The notes beneath the pieces are model-generated. The model saw only the letters and a list, made by a program, of their open reading frames with translations. It searched no databases and was not told the origin of the DNA. The translations under genes were made by a program, and so were the position numbers. Shown here in pieces: positions 2,408 to 40,466 of a DNA stretch of 50,815 bases; within the stretch, counting starts at the first letter, position 1, and each line of letters begins with the position of its first letter. The DNA lies in the NCBI GenBank assembly GCA_022572185.1, contig JACZWL010000021.1:1-50815 (forward strand). Direction: 5' to 3'. The DNA is from Pseudomonadota bacterium (GTDB taxonomy: Bacteria; Pseudomonadota; Gammaproteobacteria; Steroidobacterales; Woeseiaceae).

Positions 2408-3547
2408 ATGGCGACGTCCCATATAAATCCGCAAGGCAGGAAAATCATCCTCGGCTTGTCCGGCGGTGTCGATTCCGCCGTTGCCGCATTGCTTCTCAAG
2501 CAGCAAGGTGCCGACGTGCAGGCGTTGCACATGTCCAATTGGGAGGACGACGACGGTTATTGCACAGCGGCCGCCGATTTACAGGATGCACGCCGCGTCT
2601 GCGAGCAAATAGACATTCCGCTGCACCACGTCAATTTCGCGAAGCAATACCGTGACCGGGTGTTCAAGTACTTTCTCGATGAGTACCGGGCCGGACGCAC
2701 GCCCAACCCGGACGTACTTTGCAACCGTGAGATTAAATTCGGCGCATTCCGGGATTACGCCAAACGGCTTGGTGGCGAATTGCTGGCGACAGGACATTAC
2801 GCGCGCACGGGCGTCTCCGCTGGGCAGGTGCAACTGATGAAGGGCGCCGATAAGAGCAAGGACCAGAGTTATTTTCTGCACGCGGTCTCTGCCTGCGCGC
2901 TGGCTGAGACGATTTTTCCGCTGGGGGATCTGTTGAAAGCGGATGTCCGCCGTATTGCCCGCGATCATGGTCTGGCCATCCACGACAAAAAGGACAGCAC
3001 AGGCATCTGCTTTATTGGCGAGCGGCCGTTCAGGGAGTTCCTTGCGACTTATCTTCCGGCAGATCCAGGACCTATCCGGACACCGGAAGGCAAGGAGGTC
3101 GGACGGCACCAGGGCCTCATGTACTACACGCTGGGGCAACGCCAGGGCCTGGGCGTGGGCGGCCGGCAGGATTCCGGCGACGCACCGTGGTATGTCGCGG
3201 ACAAGATCCTTGAGGACAACGCGCTAGTCGTTGTGCAAGGCGAGCACCCGATGCTCTACAGCAGCTCAATGGCGACAAGTAACGCCACTTGGATCGGTAA
3301 ACCGCCTGAAAAGCTGTCGCGGACGGGGGCATTGAGCTGCAGCGTCAAGATTCGCTATCGGCAGCCTGACCAGGCATGCCTTGTCAGACAAGAGGGTAGC
3401 GATTTGCTCGAAGTGTCGTTTGCAGTGGAGCAAAGAGCTGTCGCACCCGGCCAGTTTGCAGTGTTCTACGACGGTGACCGCTGTCTGGGTGGCGCCGTCA
3501 TCGACCGCGTGTTTGCCCGGCACGAAATGGTCCGGGCGGCGATATGA
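2408..3547 (+). CDS. mnmA: tRNA-specific 2-thiouridylase MnmA
   Basis: MnmA (TrmU) uses ATP and a sulfur relay to make 2-thiouridine at position 34 of tRNAs for Lys, Glu and Gln. The PP-loop SGGVDS is at residues 18-23. The catalytic cysteines are C105 in CNREIKF and C201 in GICFIGER, spaced as in E. coli (C102/C199). At 379 residues the length is normal. The ATG start lies just upstream of the conserved ILGLSGGVDS. A tRNA-Lys(UUU), one of its expected substrates, is also encoded in this window. The 151 bp upstream carry no obvious gene. acnA follows after 122 bp. Confidence 0.96.
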   Translation: MATSHINPQGRKIILGLSGGVDSAVAALLLKQQGADVQALHMSNWEDDDGYCTAAADLQDARRVCEQIDIPLHHVNFAKQYRDRVFKYFLDEYRAGRTPNPDVLCNREIKFGAFRDYAKRLGGELLATGHYARTGVSAGQVQLMKGADKSKDQSYFLHAVSACALAETIFPLGDLLKADVRRIARDHGLAIHDKKDSTGICFIGERPFREFLATYLPADPGPIRTPEGKEVGRHQGLMYYTLGQRQGLGVGGRQDSGDAPWYVADKILEDNALVVVQGEHPMLYSSSMATSNATWIGKPPEKLSRTGALSCSVKIRYRQPDQACLVRQEGSDLLEVSFAVEQRAVAPGQFAVFYDGDRCLGGAVIDRVFARHEMVRAAI

Positions 3548-3669: not shown

Positions 3670-6348
3670 ATGACGGACAGCTTCGGTGCTCGTTCAACGC
3701 TTGATGTTGGCGGCAATCAGTTCGAAATTTACCGCCTTGATGCGGTTACGGAAGGACGTCTCGAGAGGCTTCCCTTCTCGCTGAAGATTCTGTTGGAGAA
3801 TCTTCTCAGACACGAAGACGGTCGCGATGTCACGCGAGACGACATACTGGCGCTTGCCAACTGGGATGCAGATGCCGAGCCGAGCACCGAGATTTCGTTT
3901 ACGCCGAGCCGCGTGATCCTCCAGGATTTTACGGGCGTGCCTGCGGTTGTCGATCTGGCCGCGATGCGCGACGCGGTCGTAAGTCTGGGTGGCTCTGCTG
4001 ACAGTATCAATCCCCAGTCACCGGCCGAACTGGTCATCGACCATTCCGTGCAGGTCGATCGGTATGGAACGGCTGACGCCCTCGATCTGAACAACAAAAT
4101 AGAATTCAATCGAAACAAGGAACGTTACTCGTTTCTCCGTTGGGGCCAGACAGCGTTCGAGAACTTCCGTGTAGTCCCGCCGAACACCGGCATTGTTCAC
4201 CAGGTAAACCTCGAGTATCTGGGACGCGTTATATTCGACGCCGACAGGAACGGGCAAAGGTGCGCATATCCCGATACGGTAGTTGGCACCGACTCGCACA
4301 CGACGATGATCAACGGGCTGGGTATTCTTGGCTGGGGCGTTGGCGGCATCGAGGCTGAGGCCGCAATGCTGGGACAACCCATCACGATGCTTATCCCGCA
4401 AGTCGTCGGCTTCAAATTAAGCGGCACACTCGCCGCGGGGACGACCGCGACCGATTTGGTTCTCACGGTGACCGAAATGCTCAGGGAAAGAGGTGTTGTC
4501 GGAAAATTCGTCGAGTTCTTTGGTAACGGTCTGGAACATTTGGCGCTGGCAGATCGGGCAACGCTCAGTAACATGTCGCCCGAATTCGGCAGCACCTGCG
4601 CGATCTTTCCGATCGACAACGAAACACTGCGCTACCTGAGGCTGTCCGGTCGCGATGCCGAGCACATCAAGCTGATCGAGGCTTACGCGAAGGAACAGGG
4701 CCTATGGCATCATGCCGGCCAGGCCGACGCTGACTACAGTGACGTACTCGAGCTCGACATGAGCACGGTCGAGCCAAGCATCGCCGGACCGAAACGCCCG
4801 CAGGACCGCATCGCATTGCGCGCGGCGGACACAGCCTTTCGCAGGGATCTGAAAGCCGCCGTAGCCGGGCGGCAGGCAGGTGGCTCGGCACAGGCTGTAC
4901 TCGATGGAGAGGAAGTCGAAATCAGGGACGGTGCGGTGCTGATCGCGGCAATTACCAGTTGCACGAATACATCCAACCCGGCCGTGATGATCGCAGCAGG
5001 ATTACTGGCGAGAAATGCACGTGAAAAAGGGCTGATGACCAAGCCCTGGGTCAAGACCAGCCTCGCGCCGGGTTCCAAGGTGGTCACGGATTATCTTGCA
5101 AAGTCTCAACTTTTGGACGATCTGGATGCCCTGGGTTTTTACACCGTCGGATACGGCTGCACGACCTGCATCGGTAATTCCGGCCCGCTGAAACCGGAGA
5201 TTGCGGAAGCCGTGCAAAGCGGCAACATCGTGGGATGCAGCGTTTTATCCGGCAATCGCAACTTTGAAGGGCGCATTCACCCTCTCGTGCGGATGAACTA
5301 TCTGGCGTCGCCGCCGCTTGTCGTCGCCTACGCGTTGGCAGGGAAAATGGACGTGAATCTCCCCAGCGACCCGCTCGGAGATGATGCGAACGGCAATCCG
5401 GTCTATTTGCGGGATATCTGGCCAGACTCAAAGGAAATACAGGAAGCGATCGCACAAAATATCGATTCCGGCATGTTCAAGTCCAGTTACGACAGCGTCT
5501 TCGCCGGCGACAAGAACTGGAACAGCCTCGATGTACCAGGCGGAGAGATCTATGCCTGGGATGCCGATTCGACTTACGTCAAGAACCCCCCTTACTTTGA
5601 AGGCATGAGCCTGCAGACCAAGCCCGTGGAGGACATTCACGGTGCAAGAGTTCTCGCTTTGCTGGGCGACTCTGTCACGACGGACCACATTTCGCCCGCA
5701 GGCAATATCGCCGCTGACAGTCCCGCTGCCGAGTATCTGAAAGCACAGGGCGTCAAACCCGTCGATTTCAATTCCTATGGTTCCAGGCGTGGCAACCACG
5801 AGGTCATGATGCGCGGCACGTTTGCCAATATTCGCCTGCGCAACCAGCTCGCGCCCGGCACCGAGGGTGGCTGGACCAGGCACCAGCCGGGCGACGAGCA
5901 AATGTCCATTTACGATGCCTCGCTGAAGTACCGCGCGGAAGGCTCACCACTGGTGGTCATAGCCGGAACCGAATACGGGACTGGTTCGTCCCGCGACTGG
6001 GCCGCGAAAGGCACCTTGCTGCTGGGCGTTAAAGCCGTTATTGCCAAAAGCTTCGAGCGGATCCATCGCTCCAACCTGATCGGCATGGGCGTATTGCCTT
6101 TGCAGTTCATGGATGGCCAGGGCGCCGATTCGCTGGGACTGACCGGCAAAGAAGTGATCGATATTGTCGGTCTTGCCGATTCTGACCTGGACACTGTCAG
6201 AGTTACCGCCACTCCCGACGGCGGCGACCCGATCGAATTTAAAGCCAAAGTCCGCATCGATACGCCGAAGGAACGCGAGTACTATGAACACGGTGGCATC
6301 CTTCATTACGTCCTTCGCCAACTGGCTAAAGCAGACAAAGCCGCCTGA
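3670..6348 (+). CDS. acnA: Aconitate hydratase A
   Basis: Aconitase interconverts citrate and isocitrate in the TCA cycle. The protein has 892 residues, as expected for the AcnA/IRP1-type monomeric enzyme. The 4Fe-4S ligands are C431 ([10 protein letters not shown]), C497 and C500 ([14 protein letters not shown]), matching C435/C501/C504 of E. coli AcnA. The C-terminal swivel domain contains [14 protein letters not shown]. The ATG is preceded by a GGGGA ribosome-binding site. The stop codon overlaps the start of the sirtuin gene, implying translational coupling. A short palindromic repeat sits in the leader. Confidence 0.97.
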
Positions 6349-7109: not shown

Positions 7110-7245
7110 GCTCCGCCTTGTATCGTTTTCCCCGGTGCGTGCCGCAGCTCCCAGCGCACGATCGTGGGCACACACCGCATCAATCGTTACGGAACTGATA
7201 GACTGTCCGGCCCTCCAAGCGTTTCGCAAACGCAGAACAAGCAAA

Positions 7246-8265
7246 ATGATATTCAAGAAAAACAAATCCGCTGAGAAGGCAGACACGATTCTCGGCAGGC
7301 CTTTATGGCTAAAAACGGTTGGCTGGGTCTTGGTCGCCGTATTCTTGTTTCTCACCGTTGTCGGCTGGTACTGGTCGAGGATGCCGGACGTCTTCTGGGT
7401 TAATCAAAAGGTGGATGGTGAAAAAACGGTAATCGGCTACGCGACCACGGATACCCTCATCCGAGTGGCCGAGACGCTGCTCGATAAGCCGGGTGGTTAT
7501 CTGAGCAACGACGTGATGCTGCCCGGCGTTTTTCTCGACAACATTCCAAATTGGGAATTCGGCGTCCTGCAGCAAGTCCGCGATATGGCGCGTGTCATTC
7601 GAAATGACTACAGCCGTAGCCAGTCGCAGTCCAAGGAAGATGTCGATGTCGTTGTCGGGGAACCGAAGTTCTTTTTCGACAACGATTCCTGGATTCTTCC
7701 GCGTACGGAATCTCAATATCGGGATGCGATCGCAGGGTTCGTCAAATACCGTAACAGATTGGCCGGTGTCAGTGAGCCGCAAGCGCAGTTCTATGCGAGA
7801 GCTGACAACCTTCGTGAATGGCTGGCCCAGGTCGAGAAACGGCTCGGCAGCCTGTCGCGGCGACTGGGTGACAGCGTTGCCACTTCAGTTATTAATACTG
7901 ATCTCGCCGGCGATCCTGCTGCCGAAGCAAATACGTCCCTGGGTGACAGTGTCGATGTCAGGACATCCTGGTTCGAGATCGACGATGTCTTCTTCGAGGC
8001 CCGTGGCACCGTCTGGGCGCTGATTCACTTCTTCCGCGCCGCGGAATTCGATTTTGCACAGGTGCTGGCCGACAAGAACGCCAGGGCAAGCGTCAGGCAG
8101 ATCATCCGCGAGTTCGAAGCAAGCCTGAAGCCGATGACATCACCGATTGTGTTGAATGGCGGCGGTTTCGGGCTTTTTGCCAATCATTCGCTGGTGATGG
8201 CAAACTACATCGCCAGAGCCAATGCGGCCGTGATCAACTTGAGGGAGCTATTGGACCAAGGGTGA
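7246..8265 (+). CDS. DUF2333 family membrane-anchored protein
   Basis: A 339-residue protein with one N-terminal transmembrane helix (about residues 23-43, LKTVGWVLVAVFLFLTVVGW) and a large, probably periplasmic, mostly helical domain. Motifs such as FWVNQKVDGEKTVIGYATT, GGYLSNDVMLPGVFLDN and TSPIVLNGGGFGLFANHSLVMANY match the DUF2333 family as I know it. No catalytic motif is evident. The frame extends upstream to 7048 through the sirtuin gene, but the ATG at 7246 just before MIFKKNK is the sensible start. It stands alone, 136 bp after the sirtuin. Function unknown. Confidence 0.75.
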   Translation: MIFKKNKSAEKADTILGRPLWLKTVGWVLVAVFLFLTVVGWYWSRMPDVFWVNQKVDGEKTVIGYATTDTLIRVAETLLDKPGGYLSNDVMLPGVFLDNIPNWEFGVLQQVRDMARVIRNDYSRSQSQSKEDVDVVVGEPKFFFDNDSWILPRTESQYRDAIAGFVKYRNRLAGVSEPQAQFYARADNLREWLAQVEKRLGSLSRRLGDSVATSVINTDLAGDPAAEANTSLGDSVDVRTSWFEIDDVFFEARGTVWALIHFFRAAEFDFAQVLADKNARASVRQIIREFEASLKPMTSPIVLNGGGFGLFANHSLVMANYIARANAAVINLRELLDQG

Positions 8266-37071: not shown

Positions 37072-38268
37072 ATGAAAGGCTATACCGCAACACTCGATAG
37101 TGGGGAGGCGATTTTCTACCGGGACCGCAAACGGTGGTTTTGGTTACTTTCCGTTCTGTATCCGCTGCAACCATTTCTCGGCATCTGGCTACACGCCGAG
37201 ACTGGCAACGAAGCATGGCTATTGCTGCCCCTCGCGCTCGGTTATGTTGCAGCACCGATACTTGATTGGCTCCTCGGCGAAGACGAAAACAACCCGCCCG
37301 AGGCCGTCGTCCTGCAGCTCGACAGGGATCGCTACTATCGTTTCCTGACTTACATCGTCGTACCACTCCACTATGTCGGGCTGATCGGAGTTGCCTACTG
37401 GGCTGGTACGCAAGAACTGGCCTGGTGGTCGTTCATTGCCCTGGCAGCCGTCGCTGGCATTGCCAGCGGGCTCGGTATTAATACCGGACACGAGCTCGGG
37501 CACAAAAAGTCGAAGCTCGAACGATCCCTGGCGAAAATCGTTCTTGCCGTGCCGGCATACGGCCACTTCTGGATCGAACACAACCGCGGCCATCACCGCG
37601 ATGTGGCAACACCCGAAGACCCGGCGAGCGCCAGAATGGGTGAGAGCATTTACAAATTCGCACTGCGAGAGATTCCCGGTGCTTTCCGGCGTGCCTGGGA
37701 TATCGAAAGAGAGCGCCTCGAGCGGTGCGACAAGCCGGTGTGGAGCACCGATAACCAGATTCTGCAGTCGTTGTCGCTATCAGCCGTGCTGCAGCTCGGA
37801 CTGATTATCGCCTTCGGCTGGAAGATGATTCCTTTTCTTGTTATCCACAATGTCCTCGCATGGTGGCAGCTGACAAGTGCCAACTACGTCGAGCACTATG
37901 GCTTGTTGCGACTGAAAGACCAAAAGGACAAGGTCGAACGCTGTCAACTGCATCATTCGTGGAACAGCAATCATATTTACAGCAATCTGGTCCTCTTTCA
38001 CCTGGAAAGACACTCCGATCACCATGCGCACCCTCTGCGCCGATATCAGTCGCTGAGACATTTCGATGATTTGCCGAGCCTGCCTAACGGATATTTCGGC
38101 ATGTACCTGCTCGCATATGTTCCGGGTCTTTGGTATCGGGTGATGGACCAGCGTCTGCTTGCCCTGGATCACATCGACGGGGACCTGGACAAAGTCAACG
38201 TCGATCCATCCAAAAAGAAGGCGCTGTATGAGAAATACGGCCAGTCTCAAAAACTGCAGGCAGGCTGA
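37072..38268 (+). CDS. alkB: Alkane 1-monooxygenase AlkB
   Basis: A 398-residue integral-membrane di-iron hydroxylase that oxidises medium-chain n-alkanes to 1-alkanols. The histidine boxes are HELGHKK (from H140), EHNRGHHRDVATPEDPAS (H170, H174, H175) and LERHSDHHAHPLRRYQ (H314-H318). The AlkB-specific NYVEHYGLLR separates it from fatty-acid desaturases. Six hydrophobic helices precede and separate the boxes. Its electron donor, rubredoxin, is encoded 6 bp downstream; no rubredoxin reductase or transcriptional regulator lies alongside. Confidence 0.96.
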   Translation: MKGYTATLDSGEAIFYRDRKRWFWLLSVLYPLQPFLGIWLHAETGNEAWLLLPLALGYVAAPILDWLLGEDENNPPEAVVLQLDRDRYYRFLTYIVVPLHYVGLIGVAYWAGTQELAWWSFIALAAVAGIASGLGINTGHELGHKKSKLERSLAKIVLAVPAYGHFWIEHNRGHHRDVATPEDPASARMGESIYKFALREIPGAFRRAWDIERERLERCDKPVWSTDNQILQSLSLSAVLQLGLIIAFGWKMIPFLVIHNVLAWWQLTSANYVEHYGLLRLKDQKDKVERCQLHHSWNSNHIYSNLVLFHLERHSDHHAHPLRRYQSLRHFDDLPSLPNGYFGMYLLAYVPGLWYRVMDQRLLALDHIDGDLDKVNVDPSKKKALYEKYGQSQKLQAG

Positions 38269-38274
38269 AGCTCG

Positions 38275-38436
38275 ATGAGCAAATTCAAATGCCCTGAATG
38301 CGCTTATGTCTTCAGCGAGGCAGACGGCGATGAGCATGAAGGCTATCCGCCCGGCACCGAGTTTGCATCGCTGCCGGAGGATTTTGCCTGCCCGGACTGT
38401 TCGGTTCGTTTCAAGGAAGACTTCGAAAAAGTCTAG
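38275..38436 (+). CDS. Rubredoxin, electron donor to AlkB
   Basis: A 53-residue protein starting MSKFKCPECAYVF and containing EGYPPGTEFASLPEDFACPDC. The iron is bound by CPEC (C6, C9) and CPDC (near C39 and C42). In both knuckles the residue after the second Cys is Ala or Ser instead of the usual Gly, and the common YD after the first knuckle is VF, so it is a divergent rubredoxin. It starts 6 bp after alkB and is surely co-expressed with it. Confidence 0.9.
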   Translation: MSKFKCPECAYVFSEADGDEHEGYPPGTEFASLPEDFACPDCSVRFKEDFEKV

Positions 38437-38536: not shown

Positions 38537-39349
38537 GTGCCCTTATCAGTGCCGTCTGTGCGGGCCCCGATCGTGGCAATCATGATTTTTCAGGTTGCTG
38601 CACTATTTGCCCGTGCTTTTCTGGAAATTCGTCTGATCGATAGCGGCGAGCCGCAGCCTTTTGCCCAGGATCTCAGTTATCTCGTCGTACCACCGATACT
38701 GATCATCCTGATGTTTCCCATCCTGCGCCGGCACGGGTCTTACCTGCGTTCTCTGTTGCGTCGACAGGATTTGACTGTTCGGCTCATTGCCGCGTCTGTC
38801 CTTCTCGGGTTCGCGTTACGAATGAGTTTTTGGGGTGGCCTGATTTCCTTTGTTTCTTTCGGAGTTTTGCGAAACACCGATGCAAATGCAGTTGTTGGCC
38901 CTGTGATTTCGTTTGGCTGCCCCGATCCCGGGATACTCGCATTGAGTTTAGTCGTGGTGTCTTTTCTCATTCCCGTGACAGAGGAGATTATTCATCGCGG
39001 CTTGATTTTGCAGTCCTTATTACACAGGGGAAAAATCCTGGCGATCGTGCTGTCTTCGGCTTTGTTTGCTATTGCGCACGACCCGCAGGCAATAGTAGTT
39101 GCGTTCATCGGCGGGCTTTTTATCGGCGTGCAAATGATCAACTGCAGGACTCTGTGGGGTCCGCTGGTTACGCACGCAACTTATAACGCCGTGGTGATTC
39201 TTGACTCGGAATGTCTGAGGGTACAATGGATTCCGATTGATACAACCCCTGCGATGCTTGGTACGGGCTTAATCGCAACGGCCTTGGCCGTCGTTGGGAT
39301 CTCCTTCAGTATTTGCCTCGTACTGCAAAAGGAACATCGAGGCGCATGA
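38537..39349 (+). CDS. CPBP family intramembrane glutamic endopeptidase
   Basis: A 270-residue polytopic membrane protein of the CPBP (CAAX protease and bacteriocin-processing, Abi) family. Catalytic motifs are EExxxR (E149, E150, R154 in VTEEIIHRGLI), FxxxH (ALFAIAHDP, about H185) and HxxxN (THATYN). Some members process prenylated proteins; others confer immunity to bacteriocins. The start is GTG at 38537; an ATG at 38582 is the alternative. It is convergent with a small gene for a leader-bearing peptide and shares its terminator, which raises a functional link (inference). Confidence 0.85.
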   Translation: MPLSVPSVRAPIVAIMIFQVAALFARAFLEIRLIDSGEPQPFAQDLSYLVVPPILIILMFPILRRHGSYLRSLLRRQDLTVRLIAASVLLGFALRMSFWGGLISFVSFGVLRNTDANAVVGPVISFGCPDPGILALSLVVVSFLIPVTEEIIHRGLILQSLLHRGKILAIVLSSALFAIAHDPQAIVVAFIGGLFIGVQMINCRTLWGPLVTHATYNAVVILDSECLRVQWIPIDTTPAMLGTGLIATALAVVGISFSICLVLQKEHRGA

Positions 39350-39361
39350 GCGCCCCGATGT
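39334..39361. terminator. Bidirectional hairpin terminator between CPBP gene and peptide gene
   Basis: ACATCG-A-GGCGC and GCGCC-C-CGATGT pair over 11 bp with one internal mismatch and a 4-nt ATGA loop. The loop carries the stop codon of the CPBP gene. It lies between two convergent genes. There is no long T tract, so its strength is uncertain. Confidence 0.55.
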
Positions 39362-39370
39362 CTGCACTTA

Positions 39371-39565
39371 TCAGCTACTCCAGGCGGCTGCGACACGCTC
39401 GATCACGTGCGATACCGCCTGAACGACGCCTTCATAGATATTGACGAGATCATCGCCAAAGCTCCCGGAATTCGTTACTCCGCCAATATCGTTGCCCGAG
39501 CCGCCCGAGCAGCCGTCACCTGCGCCTGATACAAAGCTTAGTTCACTTGAATTTAGTTCACGCAT
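39371..39565 (-). CDS. Small secreted peptide with bacteriocin-type leader
   Basis: A 64-residue peptide beginning MRELNSSELSFVSGAG, the classical class II bacteriocin/microcin leader (MRELxxxELxxVSGG), with Ala at the penultimate position of the cleavage motif. The predicted core is DGC followed by a Gly/Ser/Asn/Asp-rich stretch and an amphipathic C-terminal helix LVNIYEGVVQAVSHVIERVAAAW. It has a single Cys. The ATG at 39565 is chosen because a perfect GGAGG lies 8 nt upstream (39574-39578); an earlier ATG at 39580 would overlap that site. No C39-peptidase exporter or modification enzyme is in the window. Confidence 0.7.
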   Translation of the reverse strand: MRELNSSELSFVSGAGDGCSGGSGNDIGGVTNSGSFGDDLVNIYEGVVQAVSHVIERVAAAWSS

Positions 39566-39803
39566 AGCATCAACCTCCATGTTTCCGCTTGATTACCGTG
39601 TTACGCCGATCGCGTGATTTGACAATAGCCGATTCCGGCGATTTTCGAAGTGTGATTTATTCGGCGAAATTGCAAGAAACAGGCGCCGAAAGGGGATGCC
39701 TTGACCGCCCTGTGATGCATAACACAGTTCCCGTTGCGAACCCCGTCTACGCTGTGAAACTCGGGAAAACCCAATAATTGCCGGTGATGAGCGGAGTACC
39801 GAT

Positions 39804-40466
39804 ATGAATGCTTTGCGAGCAAAACTGACTGTCCTGCTGCTAGGCCTCGCGATGGCCGGTAGCGTATCTGCAGCTGACAACCTGTGGCTGGGATTCAAGG
39901 CCGGCACGCTCGGGCTGGGACTTGAAGCGACCTGGCGGCCGCTGCCCTGGTTCGACATCCGCGCGGGCGCAAATTCCTTTGATTACGATGACGATGGCTC
40001 GCAGGCCGGCGTCAACTACAACGCGACGCTACATCTCGAGACCTATTATGCGACGCTGAACTTTCGTTTTCCTTTGAGCCCGTTCCGGGTAACCGCAGGC
40101 GCGTTTTCTAATGGCAACGAGTTGCAGATGGTGAGCATGGATTCACCTTCGTTCGATATCGGCGGTGTCCCTTTCACCCAGGACGAAGTCGGAATATTGC
40201 GAAGCACGACCTTCTTTGAAGATGTTGCCCCCTACCTCGGTTTCGGATACGACTTCAATGTATTCGGCAAGGTGGGCTTGAATCTCGATATTGGCGTGCT
40301 GTGGCAGGGCGAACCCTCCGTCACGCTCACAGCCGATGGCCTTCTCGCAAGCGACCCTACTTTCATGGCAGCGCTCGAGGCCGAGCGTCTCGAAATCGAG
40401 GCCGAATTTGAAGACTTCAAAGCCTTCCCGGTCCTGTCGCTCGGATTCAGTTTCAATTTCTTCTGA
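39804..40466 (+). CDS. Outer-membrane beta-barrel protein
   Basis: A 220-residue protein with a clear signal peptide (LTVLLLGLAMAGSVSA, cleaved before ADN). The mature sequence alternates hydrophobic and polar residues in strands such as LWLGFKAGTLGLGLEATW, YYATLNFRFPL and VAPYLGFGYDF. It ends LSLGFSFNFF, the terminal aromatic typical of barrels inserted by BamA. Length and pattern suggest an 8-stranded barrel. A GGAG site precedes the ATG. A strong terminator follows, so it is monocistronic. Role unknown. Confidence 0.8.
   Translation: MNALRAKLTVLLLGLAMAGSVSAADNLWLGFKAGTLGLGLEATWRPLPWFDIRAGANSFDYDDDGSQAGVNYNATLHLETYYATLNFRFPLSPFRVTAGAFSNGNELQMVSMDSPSFDIGGVPFTQDEVGILRSTTFFEDVAPYLGFGYDFNVFGKVGLNLDIGVLWQGEPSVTLTADGLLASDPTFMAALEAERLEIEAEFEDFKAFPVLSLGFSFNFF

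Follow-up and report, generated by a model that had tools for sequence, protein, structure and literature searches.

We describe in Woeseiaceae a cassette of two convergent genes that very probably encodes an exported-peptide system: a 64-residue precursor with a double-glycine-type leader stands beside a CPBP-family intramembrane protease, the pair occupies one chromosomal site, and a C39-peptidase ABC transporter encoded elsewhere in the genome accompanies it. The pairing of peptide and CPBP is strong, and the association with C39 exporters strongly supports export by such a system. A microcin-like exported peptide with the CPBP as its immunity protease is the reading that best explains these observations, and we consider it reasonably probable; for the part that assigns immunity to the CPBP the chances are about even.

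A conserved leader peptide gene converges with a CPBP protease gene

The window, i.e., the whole stretch of 50,815 nucleotides that was analysed (contig JACZWL010000021.1), contains the cassette and its two borders, with the following features.

37072..38268, + strand: AlkB-type fatty-acid desaturase family protein (PF00487), one border of the cassette site
38537..39349, + strand: CPBP (Rce1-like) intramembrane glutamic protease, 270 aa, start codon uncertain (PF02517, E 2.9e-18)
38918..38920, + strand: CPBP Cys, C128 of the 270-aa form (C116 of the model), invariant in 47/47 orthologs
38981..38998, + strand: CPBP motif EExxxR, with E, E, and R invariant in 47/47 orthologs
39065..39079, + strand: CPBP motif FxxxH, with F and H invariant in 47/47 orthologs
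39173..39175, + strand: further CPBP His, invariant in 47/47 orthologs and presumably of the catalytic type
39212..39214, + strand: second CPBP Cys, C226 (C214 of the model), invariant in 47/47 orthologs
39335..39360, no strand assigned: hairpin between the convergent genes, with the CPBP stop codon TGA within its ATGA loop
39371..39565, - strand: peptide precursor gene, 64 aa, stop codon included
39374..39520, - strand: predicted mature peptide, 49 aa, with a single Cys near the N-terminus, a Gly/Ser linker, and a conserved YEGxVxxxSHVIERVA amphipathic helix
39521..39565, - strand: leader MRELNSSELSFVSGA, with L-12, E-8, L-7, V-4, G-2, and A-1 (from the 15-row alignment of relatives) and a predicted cut after GA
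39574..39578, - strand: ribosome-binding site GGAGG, 8 nt ahead of the peptide ATG
39804..40466, + strand: outer-membrane protein (CarO model at E 5e-11, below its cut-off), the other border of the site

An earlier note on this DNA had proposed a peptide gene of this length with a bacteriocin-type leader, a perfect ribosome-binding site, and an amphipathic C-terminal helix with a single cysteine, and all of these elements held in the comparison with relatives. A first search recovered the peptide in 15 of 59 other genomes at E <= 2.6e-9, and a profile matched 51 of the 107 genomes of the family at E <= 0.01, leader included, with three of the 51 (G061, G084, G110) counted on fragments at contig ends. 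Two leader-only matches were set aside: G032:C16 is the remaining half of a gene split at a contig end, and G010:C112, which likewise ends at a contig end, was taken as a cut gene too. A scan of named genomes gave 43 peptide loci, 41 of which have the coordinates of peptide loci in the Woeseiaceae set; one is from Burkholderiales. All 14 complete relatives begin at MRxL and, read by eye, their peptide genes are also preceded by GGAG or GGAGG. A longer start giving 69 aa, at an in-frame ATG at 39580, was rejected because it overlaps the ribosome-binding site and the relatives lack it.

The invariant columns of the 15-row alignment include M1, R2, L4, E8, G14, C19 (the only cysteine of the window peptide), Y44, E45, G46, S52, E56, and R57, with departures in a few further peptides, e.g., YEA in G100. 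Among 49 full-length peptides from 48 loci, residues -2/-1 are GG in 27 (one of them by eye) and GA in 22, so that the SGAG site, which had been regarded as unusual, is ordinary in this family; GG or GA is a known cleavage motif of such leaders according to the available part of PMC10233263. Exactly one cysteine follows residue 16 in 48 of the 49 peptides. The helical moment of the C-terminal segment in the window peptide is 0.469, compared with a shuffle mean of 0.181, and only 0.1% of 5000 shuffles reach this value; in 48 of the 49 peptides, this segment exceeds its shuffles in amphipathicity (p < 0.05). The AlphaFold model of the peptide has a helix at 33-63, at low confidence (mean pLDDT 64). 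Mean pairwise identity over 820 pairs is 0.71 for the C-terminal part of the peptide, 0.70 for AlkB, and 0.385 for the CPBP. The expectation of homologues with the same leader and different cores was thus borne out for the leader and not for the core, which is conserved here and is variable in shared-leader double-glycine families. The peptides that we compared with Pfam and NCBIfam matched no model above cut-off.

The neighbouring gene does encode a CPBP protein, as had been claimed: its Pfam match is above cut-off, and the EExxxR, FxxxH, and H residues are all present. The AlphaFold model is helical (mean pLDDT 89), and its best match among solved structures is SpdC (6u0o; prob 1.00, E 5e-3, TM 0.45), with none at E <= 0.001. 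Short strands beside the two invariant cysteines (model residues 111-114 and 215-218) suggest that C128 and C226 may form a disulphide. The CPBPs tested against NCBIfam CPBP models (MroQ, MrtJ, and MrtS among them) match below cut-off only, and a tblastn search of plasmids with two CPBP queries gave distant CPBP matches, none covering more than 80% of the query.

The co-occurrence of the two genes is nearly perfect. A CPBP ortholog (profile, E <= 1e-48) is present in 50 of the 51 peptide-plus genomes and in none of the 56 others, i.e., never without the peptide; the sole peptide-plus genome lacking it is G061, in which a contig end leaves just 22 residues of the peptide. Three peptide-minus genomes (G125, G002, G106) match the CPBP profile weakly, at E 1e-13 to 1e-17. 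Peptide and CPBP are adjacent on opposite strands, in convergent orientation, in 49 of 50 genomes, the exception being G084, where each of the two sits at the end of a contig of its own. The stop codons are 21 bp apart in the window and 5 bp apart in the median of 47 cassettes, among which the value of G066 is off because of its two peptides. In that genome, two divergent peptides (L137:2410-2613, 3790-3993) flank a single CPBP. The earlier note had also described a hairpin with the CPBP stop in its loop, acting as a terminator shared by the convergent genes. The hairpin stands, with folding energies of -25.8 kcal/mol (z -4.0) on the peptide strand and -20.6 kcal/mol (z -3.2) on the other; its role as a shared terminator is only plausible, since it failed the terminator scan.

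The cassette occupies one chromosomal site

In the 37 cassette-plus genomes with both flanks on one contig, the distance between the flanks is 1269-2964 bp. The corresponding cassette-minus set consists of 26 rows from 25 genomes (G102 gives two rows, and 31 more peptide-minus genomes are outside this count), and 23 of these rows, or 22 of the genomes, have a gap of 117-422 bp, i.e., a short empty site. A rubredoxin gene lies inside the two widest of these short gaps (G064 and G001). The other three genomes (G115, G023, and G002), which were counted as cassette-minus, have gaps of 1676-3023 bp filled with other DNA. Given these short empty sites and the single shared location, the cassette behaves as one block that is acquired or lost at this location. 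We rejected a mobile cassette in view of the identical site of all 37 resolved loci.

Other genes were observed around this site. An unrelated frame, by its look a membrane acyltransferase, is found at the cassette site of G115 and G023 (L156:2424-3725, L157:2882-4270). In G093, an additional 490-aa frame (L159:3716-5188) lies between CPBP and AlkB, and this is the only one of the 37 resolved cassette-plus sites above 1.7 kb. In the window (37072-38436), a rubredoxin gene (PF00301) directly follows the AlkB-type desaturase; rubredoxin is also present in 8 of 15 cassette loci of relatives. The two proteins are likely an alkane or fatty-acid hydroxylation pair.

Exporters of the C39 type co-occur with the cassette

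The prediction that the exporter must be elsewhere in the genome, and should be a C39-peptidase ABC transporter, was supported. The window genome encodes one such transporter (C4:18410-20488) with C39, transmembrane, and ATPase domains, and an HlyD-family protein (C4:20475-22082) adjoins it. Both are unlinked to the cassette, and no leader peptide was found within 12.5 kb around the transporter. The window genome thus has the C39 ABC and membrane-fusion genes expected of a class II microcin, with export itself being predicted.

Across the family, a C39 transporter (E < 1e-15) is present in 48 of the 51 peptide-plus genomes vs 12 of the 56 others (Fisher p 4e-15). PF03412 alone counted 63 genomes; G001, G087, and G091 were excluded because their sole matches score 22-24 bits in frames of 290-323 aa, and such weak matches are present in 11 genomes. 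The association holds on the AlkB tree, which was built from 86 of the family's 107 genomes (of the others, 15 were not entered, 3 have no AlkB in the stretch, and 3 only a short piece), and where the cassette changes at least 17 times and the exporter 19. On the supported branches of the careful tree, 12 independent contrasts show the exporter changing the same way in 9.3 (mean), the opposite way in 0.0, and unchanged in 2.7 (median p 0.004). The quick tree gives 9 contrasts with 7.1 the same way (median p 0.016), as do the genomes at least 85% complete (9 contrasts, 7.1 the same way, p 0.016); with genomes at least 90% complete there are 7 contrasts, 5.4 the same way and 0 opposite (median p 0.0625).

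These transporters are not one ortholog. Among 18 compared with that of the window genome, 7 are 49-60% identical to it and partly share its neighbourhood, and 11 are 32-39% identical. A scan for leader peptides around the C39 genes of the 60 positive genomes linked other cargo to them in two genomes (G002 and G115, both cassette-minus), with a leader pattern that alone recovers 45 of the 49 known peptides, on stretches many of which end at contig ends, and with the second C39 place of G115 left out. A pattern match in the cassette-plus genome G110 (L186, contig edge) is a piece of transporter by its sequence and was not counted. The peptides beside the C39 exporter of the two cassette-minus genomes are Gly/Ala/Val-rich and of the double-glycine type (L151:7958-8176; L153:6886-7104, 7165-7344); they are other cargo, possibly other bacteriocins.

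A linked version of the system in Burkholderiales

In a Burkholderiales bin, one operon holds the genes for the peptide, the CPBP, and a membrane-fusion protein, followed by the beginning of a C39 transporter gene. Among 399 Burkholderiales genomes, 14 have a peptide match at E <= 0.05, of which 5 are peptide-CPBP loci; the remaining matches were rejected, being leader-only, in long frames, or with a core that is not recognisable. Within one Burkholderiales family, the peptide is found in 12 of 28 genomes. The CPBP follows 13 of 13 peptide genes, the membrane-fusion gene comes next in 12 of 12 carriers (that of G803 being a fragment at a contig end), and the C39 gene comes next in all 10 carriers whose stretch reaches that far. 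In G832, two peptide-CPBP pairs stand in tandem. Both lineages share the leader and, apart from some deviations, the helix Y[ED]xxVxxxSHVIERV; a Cys shortly behind the leader is usually shared as well. The system is rare elsewhere: a class sample of 367 other genomes gave no peptide match, and a phylum sample of 318 others gave two weak matches only, both within long frames (557 and 572 aa) and regarded as chance hits.

The clustering of precursor, immunity, membrane-fusion, and C39 transporter genes that is expected of class II microcins is therefore seen in Burkholderiales, whereas in the window genome only precursor and CPBP are together. This bears on the possibility of coincidence, in which unrelated small genes would stand side by side and the exporter would have nothing to do with them. 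The unlinked exporter of Woeseiaceae and the diversity of its C39 transporters could be read this way, but the linked genes of all 12 Burkholderiales carriers refute it, and the distributions of CPBP (50/51 vs 0/56) and C39 (48/51 vs 12/56), the empty sites, and the tree-controlled contrasts further argue against it; we regard coincidence as hardly credible.

Several Burkholderiales clusters contain more genes. Further leader peptides lie upstream of the peptide-CPBP pair (L301:2861-3025, 3103-3264; also L276, L277, L278, L279, L300, and L302-L306), including one with GGLPPGAALDE or a near variant and, in several clusters, Pro-rich ones after the GG site; three of these upstream peptides were compared with Pfam and had no match. 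A family-2 glycosyltransferase-like gene is upstream in 6 of 9 clusters compared (L301:1895-2731, with the Pfam assignment made on this copy; L278, L300, L302, L304, L305) and could be a peptide modifier or a mere neighbour. In G563 (L280:1834-17401), the leader MRELSVNEVGFVSGG recurs in front of several cores, next to two copies of a 379-aa TraB/GumN-like gene, and a CPBP-like gene (L280 6580-7479) stands ~0.5 kb before a leader peptide with a different core. CPBP genes can thus stand near other leader peptides too.

The additional leader peptides and the glycosyltransferase-like gene would suit a secreted or cell-surface peptide without diffusible killing, e.g., a single-Cys dimer or a modified peptide that the CPBP trims before or after export, as would the amphipathic helix and the one post-leader Cys, near the cleavage site, of 48/49 peptides. 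However, no modification gene happened to be noticed beside the Woeseiaceae cassette, and the sorting-type CPBP models (MrtJ, MrtS) matched only below cut-off. Such a peptide seems to us improbable.

Likeness to known systems

The gene pair and its distant exporter seem to be conserved relatives of the microcin antibiotic systems found in gut bacteria. Microcin S (E. coli G3/10, class IIa) has a double-glycine leader precursor, an adjoining CAAX/CPBP-family gene, an HlyD-family membrane-fusion protein, and a C39 ABC transporter; its operon order, mcsS-mcsI-mcsA-mcsB, is that of the Burkholderiales operons, and mcsI, a CAAX-protease family gene, conferred self-immunity, according to the available text of PMC3316575. 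There are several differences: the precursor of MccS has 120 aa, with Cys thought to form a disulphide, and is plasmid-borne, whereas the window peptide has 64 aa and one post-leader Cys; McsI, which we likened to the window CPBP by description and not by sequence, has 216 aa and, unlike it, no transmembrane helices predicted in that paper. Woeseiaceae also differ from microcin S by the fixed site between conserved genes, the convergent CPBP, and the unlinked exporter. Microcin V / colicin V (CvaC, Cvi, CvaB, CvaA) shares the leader type, the GG or GA cleavage, and an exporter made of a C39 ABC and a CvaA-like protein, but its model (MccV, PF17508) matches the window peptide only at E 0.051 over residues 1-48, below cut-off, as does that of the E492 group (E 0.087), and Cvi is not known to be a CPBP.

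Among Gram-positives, SkkI and PlnI are CPBP / Abi-type bacteriocin immunity or maturation proteins. With these and with SilX the system has in common the CPBP family, the catalytic residues, and the peptide gene alongside; it differs in that the host is Gram-negative and that the NCBIfam CPBP models remain below cut-off. Among titles and abstract beginnings of the literature on CPBP/CAAX and bacteriocins, Woeseia bacteriocins, microcin mining, proteolytic immunity, and MroQ, we found no description of this system. The available portions of PMC11494933 and PMC13174018 make no mention of CAAX, CPBP, Burkholderiales, or Woeseiaceae, that of PMC9746304 none of CAAX, CPBP, or Burkholderiales, and that of PMC13101503 none of CPBP or CAAX; the accessible part of PMC13174018 does cite, by title, a paper on the proteolytic immunity of a Vibrio microcin.

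Role of the CPBP protease

In our preferred reading, that of a microcin-like peptide with an immunity protease, the precursor would be guided by its double-glycine-type leader to the C39-peptidase ABC transporter and the HlyD/CvaA-like membrane-fusion protein encoded elsewhere in the genome. It would be cut after GA; the product, secreted at a length of ~49 residues with its single Cys and its amphipathic helix at the C-terminus, would act on the membrane of competitors like a class IIa microcin. The CPBP in the inner membrane of the producer would neutralise the peptide, probably by cutting or holding the YEGxVxxxSHVIERVA helix. This helix is a likely recognition site of the CPBP because it is the core element best kept in both lineages and because the CPBP is always beside it.

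The precursor has the double-glycine (GG or GA) leader of a class II microcin, and the CPBP, adjacent to it in 49/50 genomes, would be the dedicated immunity protein. Two observations favour immunity: the tandem arrangement of peptide-CPBP pairs, as toxin-immunity pairs do, and the fast evolution of the CPBP relative to AlkB. Several others count against the preferred reading. First, the conserved core, the single fixed site, and the absence of orphan CPBPs do not fit a classical bacteriocin, and immune relatives might be expected to keep an orphan CPBP ortholog. Second, G066 has two peptides and a single CPBP. Third, the C39 transporters are diverse. Fourth, McsI differs from the window CPBP by its lack of predicted transmembrane helices. 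Fifth, the MccV and E492 matches are below cut-off and the net charge of the peptides is acidic (median -5); microcins are usually neutral or anionic, with microcins N, PDI, and S named as exceptions, in the available part of PMC10233263.

The conservation of the peptide helix and the absence of orphan CPBPs favour instead a role in maturation or signalling. The peptide would then be a secreted intraspecies signal or self-recognition peptide conserved across Woeseiaceae, and the CPBP a protease for its maturation, turnover, or sensing. The strict pairing with CPBP, the conserved core, the fixed site, and the joint loss of cassette and exporter are all consistent with this. There are also precedents. 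MroQ is a CPBP-type protease acting in agr. SilX, a CAAX protease, is needed for bacteriocin production through the signal peptide SilCR, whose activity requires it, and not for immunity (PMC9298176, in its available part), which counts against the immunity reading. On the other hand, a look that was not systematic showed no sensor or regulator next to the cassette or among the few Burkholderiales flanking genes run on Pfam (EamA, rhodanese, glycosyltransferase), and the tandem duplication of the whole peptide-CPBP pair suits immunity better. We thus prefer immunity, an evenly balanced proposition, to maturation or signalling, which we hold to be possible and on the unlikely side. Extended to both lineages, the signalling idea would make the peptide a conserved secreted language, shared by Woeseiaceae and one Burkholderiales family, that serves signalling or the recognition of kin instead of killing; the CPBP would read or process the conserved helix, and the exporter, at its distant locus, would be retained for this single cargo and disappear when the cargo does. 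We find this rather doubtful.

Implications for Woeseiaceae

Woeseiaceae are marine-sediment bacteria, and for this family, represented mostly by metagenome bins, the cassette and its exporter provide a defined peptide-protease-exporter system for bench tests. Because the helix is conserved and the pairing strict, it can be tested directly whether a CPBP beside double-glycine peptides is an enzyme of proteolytic immunity or of maturation. The system also suggests that cargo and exporter can be chromosomally unlinked and yet be kept or lost together, and that gene-cluster mining would miss such cases.
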